A stretch of 7,355 bases of DNA, taken from NCBI GenBank assembly GCA_040757115.1, contig JBFLYA010000187.1, positions 1-7,355 on the forward strand, written 5' to 3'. Below, piece after piece: positions 5,108-7,355 of this stretch. Both the position numbers and the translations under genes were made by a program. The notes beneath the pieces were generated by a model. That model was not told the origin of the DNA. It saw only the letters and a program-made list of their open reading frames with translations, and made no database searches. The stretch comes from a bacterium. Lineage in GTDB: Bacteria; UBA9089; CG2-30-40-21; SBAY01. Numbering within the stretch: position 1 is the stretch's first letter; each line of letters opens with the position of its first letter.

Positions 5108-5137
5108 ATCATACACTATTTAACAACTTCCCAGTAA
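5108..5137 (-). promoter_or_regulatory. Possible recG promoter
   Basis: On the minus strand TATGAT (5113-5108) is a five-of-six -10, preceded after 18 bases by a poor -35, TTACTG (5137-5132). It would start transcription about 20 bases before the preferred recG ATG. The -35 lies in the first bases of the inverted-repeat element at 5133-5339, so that element may contribute to recG expression. The assignment is weak. Confidence 0.3.
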
Positions 5138-5339
5138 TTATTCAGCCACAGATAGACACGGCTGAAACACTGAAAATTCGTAAATCGTGTCCGTAGTTAG
5201 GCTGAAGGTTTTTCCTCCTGTTGTCCTCTGCCCTCTGCCCTCTGCTCTCTGCCTTCTGCCCTCTGCCTTCTGCCCTCTGCCCTCTGTCCTCTATATTTAT
5301 CCCTGCTAATCCGTGTTAATCAGTGGCTGAATAGTTACC
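5133..5339. mobile_element. MITE-like element with 29-bp terminal inverted repeats
   Basis: The left end (5133-5161, AGTAATTATTCAGCCACAGA then TAGACACGG) matches the reverse complement of the right end (5311-5339) at about 23-24 of 29 positions. The shared core is TATTCAGCCAC...GAT...ACACGG. The 207-bp element fills the space between the recG start and the DarT-macro stop. It codes for nothing recognisable. It holds a TAGGCTGAAGG segment (5199-5209) and a 70-bp heptamer array. No target-site duplication is obvious. The 'CAGCCACAGAT...ACACGG' sequence is, from memory, a dispersed repeat in many environmental bacterial genomes. Confidence 0.55.
5225..5294. repeat. Ten tandem 7-bp repeats (CCTCTGC)
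   Basis: Ten consecutive heptamers follow the pattern CCTCTGC, with variants TCTCTGC, CTTCTGC, CCTCTGT and CCTCTAT. On the minus strand this is GCAGAGG/GCAGAAG. It is perfectly in phase for 70 bases, all pyrimidine on the plus strand except for one G per unit. It is untranslated. A related purine/pyrimidine heptamer theme returns in the spacers at 6561-7225. Length should vary between strains by slippage. Confidence 0.9.
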
Positions 5340-5354
5340 TTTGCCATATCAATC

Positions 5355-6530
5355 TTATCCTATTAAGAATTTTTTAGTAAGATATTCTTCAGACATTTTC
5401 TCTTCTGCTGGTAAATATATTCTAACGGAAATGTCTAAATTTTTTAAATATTTACACATTAAAGGCCCAATATCTTGCCACTTTAAATTTCCAAGTCCAC
5501 ACCCAAGAGCAGGTAAAGCCAGAGATTTTATTGCTTCTTTTTTATAATTATCAACTATCCAATTTAGCCCTTTTTCAATCCCTTTTATATCTGCATCTTC
5601 TTTAAAGTGTTGCTTGGTAGGAAATAGAAGAAACCATGTTGCACCATTCCCATTTTTTAATGTAGATGGTTCATCTGCCAATTGATAATCAAGAGAACTC
5701 TCTCGTTTGTAAAGATATGGTTTTCCCATTTGTAATTGTAATGGACGATTTCTGCAAACATATTGGTATTGAACATAGACATCTGGAAACTGCCATTTTG
5801 CACGAGAAGCAAGTCCTTTTCCCATAACACCAACACAATTTACACTTATAGTAAGTGTTTGCATCCTTGAAAAGAACATATCTCCGTCTGTTACATATAA
5901 CAACGGAGTAATTTCTATCTCACGAGAAGGTTTGAAAAACATATTCGGTTGGGGAACAACAGATATAGGGAACGATGATAAAAATTCTTTTATTTTATTA
6001 GCAATATTATGATTTGCAACATAAATTGTATGAATATATTCTGGTGAAATCATATCCGGGACAAGACACTCAGCCATTATTTTCCTTTTATCTCCACTTT
6101 CTTCAGTCCACCATTTTTTATCAAGAACTTCTGTTAATTTATATAGTGTTTTCTTTCCCTCTTTGGCTGGAAGTATTTCTGTAGCAGAACTGGCTGCATT
6201 ACCCGAAGAAATAAAAATATCATTACGATTCAATATATCTAACTTAATAGCGATAACTACAATATCATTATCTGATTTCTCACAGACTACCCTGAATAAC
6301 ATCGGATTTCTTGGTTGAAAATACACATTAGCAAAATCCCATAGATTTCTACCACTGCCATCAGGTATAATTCTATTACGACGATTTTCTATAATCTCTT
6401 TATCATATATGGGTGTATAACTGATTTGGCGTTCTTCTACCTGTTTATGTGACAAAATGCCATTCTTCAATATAGAAGGTAAATTGTCTATGTGTGTAAT
6501 ATAATATAAATGTCTAATTTTAAATGCCAT
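5355..6530 (-). CDS. DarT-type DNA ADP-ribosyltransferase fused to a DarG-type macrodomain
   Basis: This 391-residue protein joins a toxin and its antidote domain. DarT enzymes use NAD+ to attach ADP-ribose to DNA bases and block replication; DarG macrodomains remove it. Residues 1 to ~200 are DarT (DUF4433). They show LYYITHIDNLPSILKNGILS (8-27), NRRNR with Arg51 in the place of the catalytic Arg51 I recall for Thermus DarT, FANVYFQPRNPMLF (66-79) and MAECLV with Glu154 as the catalytic glutamate. The NAD-contact His of YHITH is Tyr10. Residues ~205-375 are the macrodomain, with SVNCVGVMGKGLA (229-241), LLFPTKQHF (301-309, Lys306 probably catalytic) and LPALGCGLGNLKW (339-351). Both halves look intact. 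Known darT and darG are usually separate genes, and DarG has a further C-terminal DarT-binding domain absent here. The ATG at 6530 has GGAAG seven bases upstream. The gene is AT-rich and lies next to repeat arrays. Function is inferred from motifs. Confidence 0.88.
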   Translation of the reverse strand: MAFKIRHLYYITHIDNLPSILKNGILSHKQVEERQISYTPIYDKEIIENRRNRIIPDGSGRNLWDFANVYFQPRNPMLFRVVCEKSDNDIVVIAIKLDILNRNDIFISSGNAASSATEILPAKEGKKTLYKLTEVLDKKWWTEESGDKRKIMAECLVPDMISPEYIHTIYVANHNIANKIKEFLSSFPISVVPQPNMFFKPSREIEITPLLYVTDGDMFFSRMQTLTISVNCVGVMGKGLASRAKWQFPDVYVQYQYVCRNRPLQLQMGKPYLYKRESSLDYQLADEPSTLKNGNGATWFLLFPTKQHFKEDADIKGIEKGLNWIVDNYKKEAIKSLALPALGCGLGNLKWQDIGPLMCKYLKNLDISVRIYLPAEEKMSEEYLTKKFLIG

Positions 6531-6654
6531 ATCTACACTTCCAATGGTTCTCCTAAAAATAGGAAATAGAAAGTAGAGAGTAGAAAGTAGAAAGTAAAGA
6601 AAACATCACTCCTCACGCCTATCTCCTTACCTCCCACCTTCTATCTCCTACCTA

Positions 6655-6710
6655 CTATTTTCATCCTCATTTGTGAACCCACGGTTCATGAGCGTTTCCC
6701 CTGAAAATAA
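6655..6710. repeat. Hairpin element, copy 1
   Basis: The outer arms are CTATTTTCA (6655-6663) and TGAAAATAA (6702-6710), with only the last base unpaired. The inner hairpin is TGAACC (6674-6679), loop CAC, GGTTCA (6683-6688). After it comes TGAGCGTTTCCCC. Confidence 0.75.
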
Positions 6711-6802
6711 GGAAGTAGAAAGTAGAGAGTAGAAAGTAGAAAGTAAAGAAAACATCACTCCTCACGCCTATCTCCTTACCTCCCACCTTCTATCTCCTAC
6801 CA

Positions 6803-6858
6803 CTATTTTCATCCTCATTTGTGAACCCACGGTTCATGAGCGTTTCCCCTGAAAATAG
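6803..6858. repeat. Hairpin element, copy 2
   Basis: The outer arms CTATTTTCA (6803-6811) and TGAAAATAG (6850-6858) pair perfectly. The inner hairpin TGAACC-CAC-GGTTCA (6822-6836) is identical to copy 1. The start of the element is 148 bases from copy 1. Confidence 0.75.
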
Positions 6859-6933
6859 CGAATTAGTGAATTAGAGATTAGCGAATTAGTATAGTATCCA
6901 CAGACTCGTATCCTATGGTGTAGAACAGATATT

Positions 6934-6951
6934 CCCCCTTAATAAAGGGGG
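6934..6951. repeat. CCCCCTT-AATA-AAGGGGG hairpin in spacer 3
   Basis: A perfect 7-bp stem with a 4-base loop is followed by GTTAGGGGGTTG. There is no T-tract after it on the plus strand, so it is not a typical intrinsic terminator. A related C/G hairpin is at 7302-7317. This looks like a dispersed repeat. Confidence 0.5.
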
Positions 6952-6970
6952 TTAGGGGGTTGTTCTTCCA

Positions 6971-7026
6971 TTATTTTCATCCCCCTTTGTGAGCCGCAGG
7001 TTCATGAGCGTTTCCCCTGAAAATAA
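6971..7026. repeat. Hairpin element, copy 3
   Basis: The outer arms are TTATTTTCA (6971-6979) and TGAAAATAA (7018-7026). Both end bases changed relative to copy 2 and still pair. The inner stem is TGAGCC-GCA-GGTTCA, which keeps pairing through one G-T (G-U) wobble. Confidence 0.75.
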
Positions 7027-7118
7027 GGAAGTAGAAAGTAGAGAGTAGAAAGTAGAAAGTAAAGAAAACATCACTCCTCACGCCTATCTCCTTACCTCCC
7101 ACCTTCTATCTCCTACCA

Positions 7119-7176
7119 CTATTTTCATCCTCCCTTGTGTCCACCCCGTGGACATGTCCGGTTCTCCTGAAAATAG
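7119..7176. repeat. Hairpin element, copy 4, with a different inner stem
   Basis: The outer arms CTATTTTCA (7119-7127) and TGAAAATAG (7168-7176) are perfect. The inner stem is TGTCCAC (7138-7144), loop CCC, GTGGACA (7148-7154). Its sequence differs on both sides from copies 1 and 2 and is still perfectly paired. The tail reads TGTCCGGTTCTCC, close to the half element at 6546. Confidence 0.75.
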
Positions 7177-7232
7177 GCTGAAGGCTGAAGGGTATAGGCT
7201 GAAGTTTTGAACGCTATTTCCTTCAGCCTATT
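7173..7232. repeat. GGCTGAA heptamers and a GGCTGAAG/CTTCAGCC hairpin
   Basis: GGCTGAAGGCTGAAG (7177-7191) is two in-phase heptamers, and a third follows GGGTATA. ATAGGCTGAAG (7194-7204) pairs perfectly with CTTCAGCCTAT (7221-7231) around a 16-base loop. AATAGGCTGAAG at 7173-7184 can pair with the same arm for 12 bases, so two alternative hairpins exist. Confidence 0.6.
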
Positions 7233-7245
7233 TTTCATCGTCCTC

Positions 7246-7355
7246 GTATAATATATATTGTTGGTCATTTTGAATGCCACAATCCTAATTCCTTATTAAA
7301 GCCCCCAAGATTGGGGGGTGGGGGTTGAAAATAAAATTAAAAAATTAATTATTAG
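7246..7355. other. Non-coding end of window with one C/G hairpin
   Basis: I see no gene or RNA here. The only structure is CCCCCAA (7302-7308), GA, TTGGGGG (7311-7317), followed by a G-rich run and an AT-rich tail. It is similar in style to the hairpin at 6934. The next gene upstream may lie outside the window. Confidence 0.5.

Follow-up and report, generated by a model that had tools for sequence, protein, structure and literature searches.

A stem-loop repeat in a bacterial contig is the junction between non-coding hairpin cassettes whose arrays often begin at Shine-Dalgarno-like tracts

The repeated hairpin element recognized near one end of the DNA analysed here (the window, a 7,355-nt stretch that makes up contig C187 in a genome of 4.3 Mb and 462 contigs) is the joint of two independent cassettes, made up of the end of one and the start of the next. 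Read on the + strand, a cassette consists of TTTCYCC-TGAAAATA, a payload, the stretch TATTTTCAT...TTTGTG, a hairpin and CATGNNNG; it measures ~150–170 bp and is non-coding, and the payloads are family-specific and about 40–150 nt long. We lean towards the view that these are trans-mobilised non-coding cassettes, with a structure-conserved hairpin at one end, lying in head-to-tail arrays.

The initial annotation had described four copies of the element at about 6655–7176, and they were found where it put them, with the stems it described. Copy 1 (6656–6709) and copy 2 (6804–6857) have the inner stem TGAACC/GGTTCA, copy 3 (6972–7025) has TGAGCC/GGTTCA with one G.T pair, and copy 4 (7120–7175) has TGTCCAC/GTGGACA. 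The 9-bp outer arms that it assigned to the element needed slight correction, in that TATTTTCA/TGAAAATA pair over 8 bp in all four copies, and the ninth pair is present in copies 2, 3, and 4 but is replaced by C..A in copy 1. The array also overruns these coordinates both ways, to a lone right arm at 6545–6561 and a decayed left arm at 7229–7246.

The array, which we describe on the + strand, starts with the lone right arm (R; TGGTTCTCCTAAAAATA, 2 mismatches). Cassette 1 (6548–6694), whose boundary was placed by the linkage break described below, comprises R, a GTAG-type payload (6562–6655), a left (L) arm (6656–6675), the hairpin TGAACC-CAC-GGTTCA (6674–6688), and TGAGCG. The nearly identical cassette 2 (6695–6842) has a GTAG-type payload (6710–6803), an L arm (6804–6823), and a TGAACC/GGTTCA hairpin (6822–6836). 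Cassette 3 (6843–7010) contains a GAATTAG/CCCCC-type payload (6858–6971), a TCCCCC-variant L arm (6972–6991), and a TGAGCC/GGTTCA hairpin (6990–7004); payloads of this type are followed by the AGCC hairpin in 14 of 15 copies and by the TCCCCC arm in 13 of 15. Cassette 4 (7011–7161) returns to a GTAG-type payload (7026–7119), a type that folds no better than its shuffles (z −0.14), followed by an L arm (7120–7139) and the hairpin TGTCCAC-CCC-GTGGACA (7138–7154). Cassette 5 is a remnant (7162–7246) in which a GGCTGAAG-type payload, itself a strong hairpin (z −5.4), precedes the decayed L arm, and the terminal hairpin has been lost; a payload of this type lacks its hairpin at locus L151 as well.

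DarT-type toxins and their antitoxins are usually encoded by separate genes. The gene downstream of the array (5355–6530, − strand) fuses a DarT ADP-ribosyltransferase domain (Pfam PF14487, 6e-51) to a Macro (DarG-like) domain (PF01661, 6.9e-06) in a single 391-aa ORF. The window also holds a DNA methyltransferase of the N6/N4 family (296–1381, − strand), hisA, and recG, together with two more long imperfect palindromes, at 2633–2889 and 5133–5338, whose ends differ (GTAAGCGTTCA...TGAACGCTTAC and GTAATTATTCAGCCAC...GTGGCTGAATAGTTAC). Both palindromes are made up of recurring short words (CGCAGAGACACAGAGACGC, for example); the word CGCAGAG is widespread, also outside the cassette family, and CCCTCTG/CCTTCTG 7-base near-repeats form a run at 5217–5295, inside one of the palindromes.

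The division of each repeat into two units is drawn from linkage across it. Among internal cassettes, payload type is tied to the arm (z 10.8) and the hairpin (z 5.7) that follow it, whereas there is no link to the hairpin that precedes it (z 1.0). A position-wise linkage test over 114 junctions of standard form showed that each variable base between the start of L and the third base past CATG, both inclusive, followed the left payload and that the final base of R followed the right payload (0/500 shuffles in each case); left and right payloads were independent of each other. The unit therefore runs from TTTCYCC-TGAAAATA through payload, L, and hairpin to CATGNNNG. The bases at the arm ends share information across the payload (0/2000 shuffles as high), but not across the hairpin (1317/2000 shuffles as high), and we therefore rejected a whole-element stem of outer arms plus inner hairpin, in which the initial annotation had placed the outer arms under common selection. 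Its proposal that the outer end pair changes in concert fared no better, with a mutual information of 0.031 compared with 0.036 ± 0.015 in shuffles. For the four payload cores tested, we likewise rejected the view that the payload is a palindromic mobile element in its own right: R and L bound them in nearly all cases, with both arms flanking 74/88, 37/43, 9/12, and 8/8 copies, and none was found in the reverse orientation. The three bases past CATG (e.g., 6691–6693 and 7157–7159 in the window) vary strongly within an otherwise conserved stretch (AGC, TCC, ACC, ACG, CCC, and others) and track the cassette that they end. As a point of method, an apparent stem-loop repeat can be a two-unit junction, and linkage across the repeat reveals it as such.

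The initial annotation anticipated copies beyond the locus, and these proved abundant: of 150 candidates scored with a covariance model in each genome, at least 143 in the window's genome and at least 132 in a sister genome were matches. Copies with exact ends number 29 in the window's genome (reversed-pattern control, 0), and a strict motif occurs 66 times there and 50 times in the sister genome, with no match in 384 other genomes searched; no family copies were found in the viral contigs, plasmids, or phages searched. Scoring L (TATTTTCATCNTC(A/C)TTTGTG) and R (CGTTTCYCCTGAAAATA) over 0.91 Mb of the window's genome and 0.72 Mb of its sister, in contigs sampled mostly for holding matches and thus biased toward them, gave 126 arrays with 184 hairpin junctions. 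Most arrays that are not cut by a contig end have a lone R at their head; the final unit stops after its hairpin at CATGNNNG-TTTCTCCT, beyond which the sequence is unrelated host DNA. Adjacent junctions within 500 nt share the same orientation in 59 of 59 cases, with none opposed. No gene-bearing cassette was obvious among the listed inter-arm gaps of >200 nt, nor was an autonomous, gene-bearing version of the family found.

Both assemblies are short-read-like, with many contig breaks near repeats, and some array orders may therefore be misassembled; as the junction tracts are shorter than usual assembly words, linkage within a cassette is safer than the order between cassettes. Contig ends lie about 65–165 nt from a junction in many contigs, namely C26, C34, C40, C151, C184, and C286 of genome G000 and C17, C71, C250, C285, and C294 of genome G001. 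Much of the assembly breakage is probably due to the family's repeats.

In 52 of the 87 arrays with a leading R (60%), the minus-strand AGGAG of the first arm is placed where an ORF's Shine-Dalgarno would be, 3–19 nt (mostly 4–8) ahead of the start codon in a reading frame of ≥60 codons. Random positions reach 10% by this measure, and AGGAGAA motifs as a whole 21%; there are about 126 sites at which an array starts at a Shine-Dalgarno-like tract. The window itself is atypical, since the minus strand of its lone R reads TATTTTTAGGAGAA and lies 19 nt ahead of the DarT-macro ATG, which exceeds normal Shine-Dalgarno spacing. The core (CTCC or CCCC) partly follows the next payload and is mostly CTCC at array starts, whilst CCCC is found at 1/29 array ends as opposed to 85/184 internal positions. 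To judge from these base distributions, the pattern suggests that the terminal core is host sequence, with the crossover falling in the common TTTCYCC tract. Host and cassette both influence the first core, which localises any crossover no finer than the TTTCYCCTGAAAA tract. Within one array, the left core often does not match the right one, the single cassette at L187 has CTCAT at both sides, and no consistent target-site duplication was seen at the array cores compared.

Support for the idea that cassettes come and go, and do so fast, comes from the two sister genomes, which carry different cassettes at each of the 13 orthologous sites compared although the flanks are mostly about 90–99% identical; the payload labels used in that comparison are coarse, and the sequences show the differences directly for most sites. 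Loci L144 and L184 are exactly one GAATTAG-type cassette apart, with matching flanks and an intact junction in the shorter one. A clean never-occupied site was not found among those compared, the closest being L138, which is perhaps a deletion scar. L130 and L209 are one site in the two genomes, with a cassette array in one genome and an unrelated GGTAACTGG.../...CCAGTTACC palindrome in the other, and several kinds of palindromic element seem to contend for the same intergenic slots.

Such turnover could have arisen in a different way, namely from old repeats reshuffled without a dedicated enzyme, through tandem duplication and slippage and through recombination, ordinary or by single-strand annealing, between near-identical arrays, with the arms kept complementary by mutual templating in replication. 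The junction repeat spans about 17–24 nt, and a 24-bp repeat could permit the loss of a cassette through slippage. L119/L091 carry duplicated blocks in the order A-B-A-B, cassettes 1 and 2 of the window resemble such a duplicate, and the sequence classes of the hairpin could come from template switching. Nevertheless, we think this rather unlikely, as neighbouring cassettes are independent, with a sharp break within one short tract, and duplication leaves the starts at Shine-Dalgarno sequences (both those in the spacing test and the larger set of sites) unexplained.

In contrast to the outer arms, the inner hairpin behaves as the initial annotation had suggested from its paired changes. Across 36 distinct stems genome-wide, 94.4% of positions are paired compared with 79.1 ± 1.7% in shuffles (0/500), and the covariation score is 0.422 versus 0.145 when shuffled (0/500). 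Sliding the partner arm destroys the pairing, and 38 distinct arm pairs, with the 3′ arm anchored on CATG, are 89% paired versus 57 ± 4% in shuffles. Covariation and copies elsewhere, whose absence would have refuted the initial annotation by its own account, were both obtained. Its broader conclusion of selection on structure is supported for the inner hairpin but not for the outer arms, and the templating of one arm by the other during repair or replication could produce paired changes that mimic selection. Similarly, its view that the copies are "not just copied debris" fits the data, although the sequence-level evidence favours mobile DNA.

Four outer positions of the stem are invariant, and two of them are G.U/U.G on the + strand. 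As to which strand folds, wobble pairs overall show a weak bias (G.T versus A.C, 22 vs. 10, p 0.05), with which folding energies disagree. Translated mini-ORFs behind a minus-strand AGGAG...ATG were considered and rejected, as the hairpin classes differ in length modulo 3 (judged by hand).

A covarying stem that sits on the sense strand just upstream of gene starts is also what one might see in an RNA regulatory or mRNA-stabilising 5′-leader element, in which a minus-strand transcript, such as that of the DarT-macro gene, would carry hairpins just upstream of its Shine-Dalgarno. We consider this improbable. A regulatory RNA conserved in the host is hard to reconcile with hairpin content and number that change at every one of the orthologous sites compared; moreover, the base of the stem has conserved G.U pairs that favour folding of the + strand, which is antisense to the gene, even if the overall wobble bias is weak, and no Rfam family was matched at gathering score.

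A known system with a similar organisation is the integron, whose attC sites are defined by a GTTRRRY core and a RYYYAAC inverse core that bound a palindrome (PMC3053210). As in integron cassettes, the payload is linked to a structured site at its 3′ end and neighbours are independent of one another; the likeness extends to a hairpin whose shape is kept over its sequence, free shuffling of neighbours, and a short insertion core that is also present at the array start (PMC3053210). The two differ in that our family comprises well over a hundred arrays across two genomes, with non-coding payloads and no adjacent integrase. The cassettes could, in principle, be integron cassettes stranded without an integron, i.e., attC arrays minus integrase, moved by the genome's own IntI. 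Their head-to-tail arrangement, with a hairpin site at the 3′ end, matches, and G000 encodes an apparently intact 460-aa integron integrase (L231 1471–2853, in C39; 368.6 bits vs. an NCBIfam cut-off of 265), plus several broken or partial ones (C30, C63, C114, C116, C118, and C324). However, the family's core reads GTTTCYC (G-TTTCYCC in the junction consensus) and not GTTRRRY (PMC3053210), and the left arm has no RYYYAAC. The integrase locus contains what reads like an ordinary, canonical attC site (L231:3680–3760), but no copies of the family, and the payloads are non-coding. We rank this explanation lowest.

Very improbable, too, is that the cassettes are miniature elements of the REP/REPIN type, or PATE-like ones derived from IS200/IS605, that a Y1 transposase (RAYT) mobilises. 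REP/REPIN sequences resemble the family as small palindromic intergenic repeats of high copy number that are plausibly moved in trans (PMC3116915, PMC3733652), the hairpins described here are similarly small, dispersed, and intergenic, and both genomes contain Y1_Tnp genes. In contrast, REP sequences lack cassette linkage, and the feet of our hairpin, 5′ (A/C)TTTG and 3′ ATGNNCG, have neither the GTAG nor the CGTC tag. Inverted doublets are absent, there being no neighbours in opposite orientation, and the Y1_Tnp loci that were fetched (L235–L242) have no convincing copies beside them, with no arms save weak isolated matches at L237, L239, and L240.

Generic MITEs (ERIC, Correia, and RUP) are likewise small, non-autonomous elements near genes, but the true unit of this family has no flanking terminal inverted repeat and forms arrays with interchangeable payloads. 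Compared by organisation, the nearest known non-coding parallel is BOX of Streptococcus (boxA-(boxB)n-boxC; PMC3049150). Both are short, modular, structured non-coding repeats in many copies, with a tandem module number that varies between strains, and for neither has a dedicated enzyme been established. In BOX, a single main module is repeated between end modules of distinct kinds, and its hosts belong to a different phylum, whereas our family has several payload families with their own terminal hairpin variants, free joining, and docking at Shine-Dalgarno sequences.

Returning to trans-mobilised cassettes, we infer that an enzyme moves them, with the hairpin as its recognition element, and that any effects on genes are secondary. 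The conserved TTTCYCC tract would be the joining point for new cassettes, each of which would recreate it, so that arrays would grow in one orientation. Because this tract complements the Shine-Dalgarno AGGAGAA, arrays would start at the 5′ ends of genes and would supply the gene with a replacement Shine-Dalgarno. The trans-acting recombinase or transposase is proposed to rely more on the shape of the hairpin than on its sequence, and this would account for the covarying stems; no hairpin copies were found near the integron-integrase or Y1 transposase loci examined.

It is conceivable, albeit doubtful, that this is a second integron-like system, in which some recombinase puts shape-recognised non-coding hairpin cassettes into Shine-Dalgarno sequences genome-wide and thereby rewires 5′ leaders between close species. 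If movement is enzymatic, the system would spread non-coding hairpins by the hundred while targeting the ribosome-binding site, a motif found at nearly every gene start, with the gene being handed a replacement. Cassette shuffling would then reach beyond the protein-coding integrons, and the orthologous genes of the two sister genomes would offer a natural collection of numerous alternative 5′ leaders.
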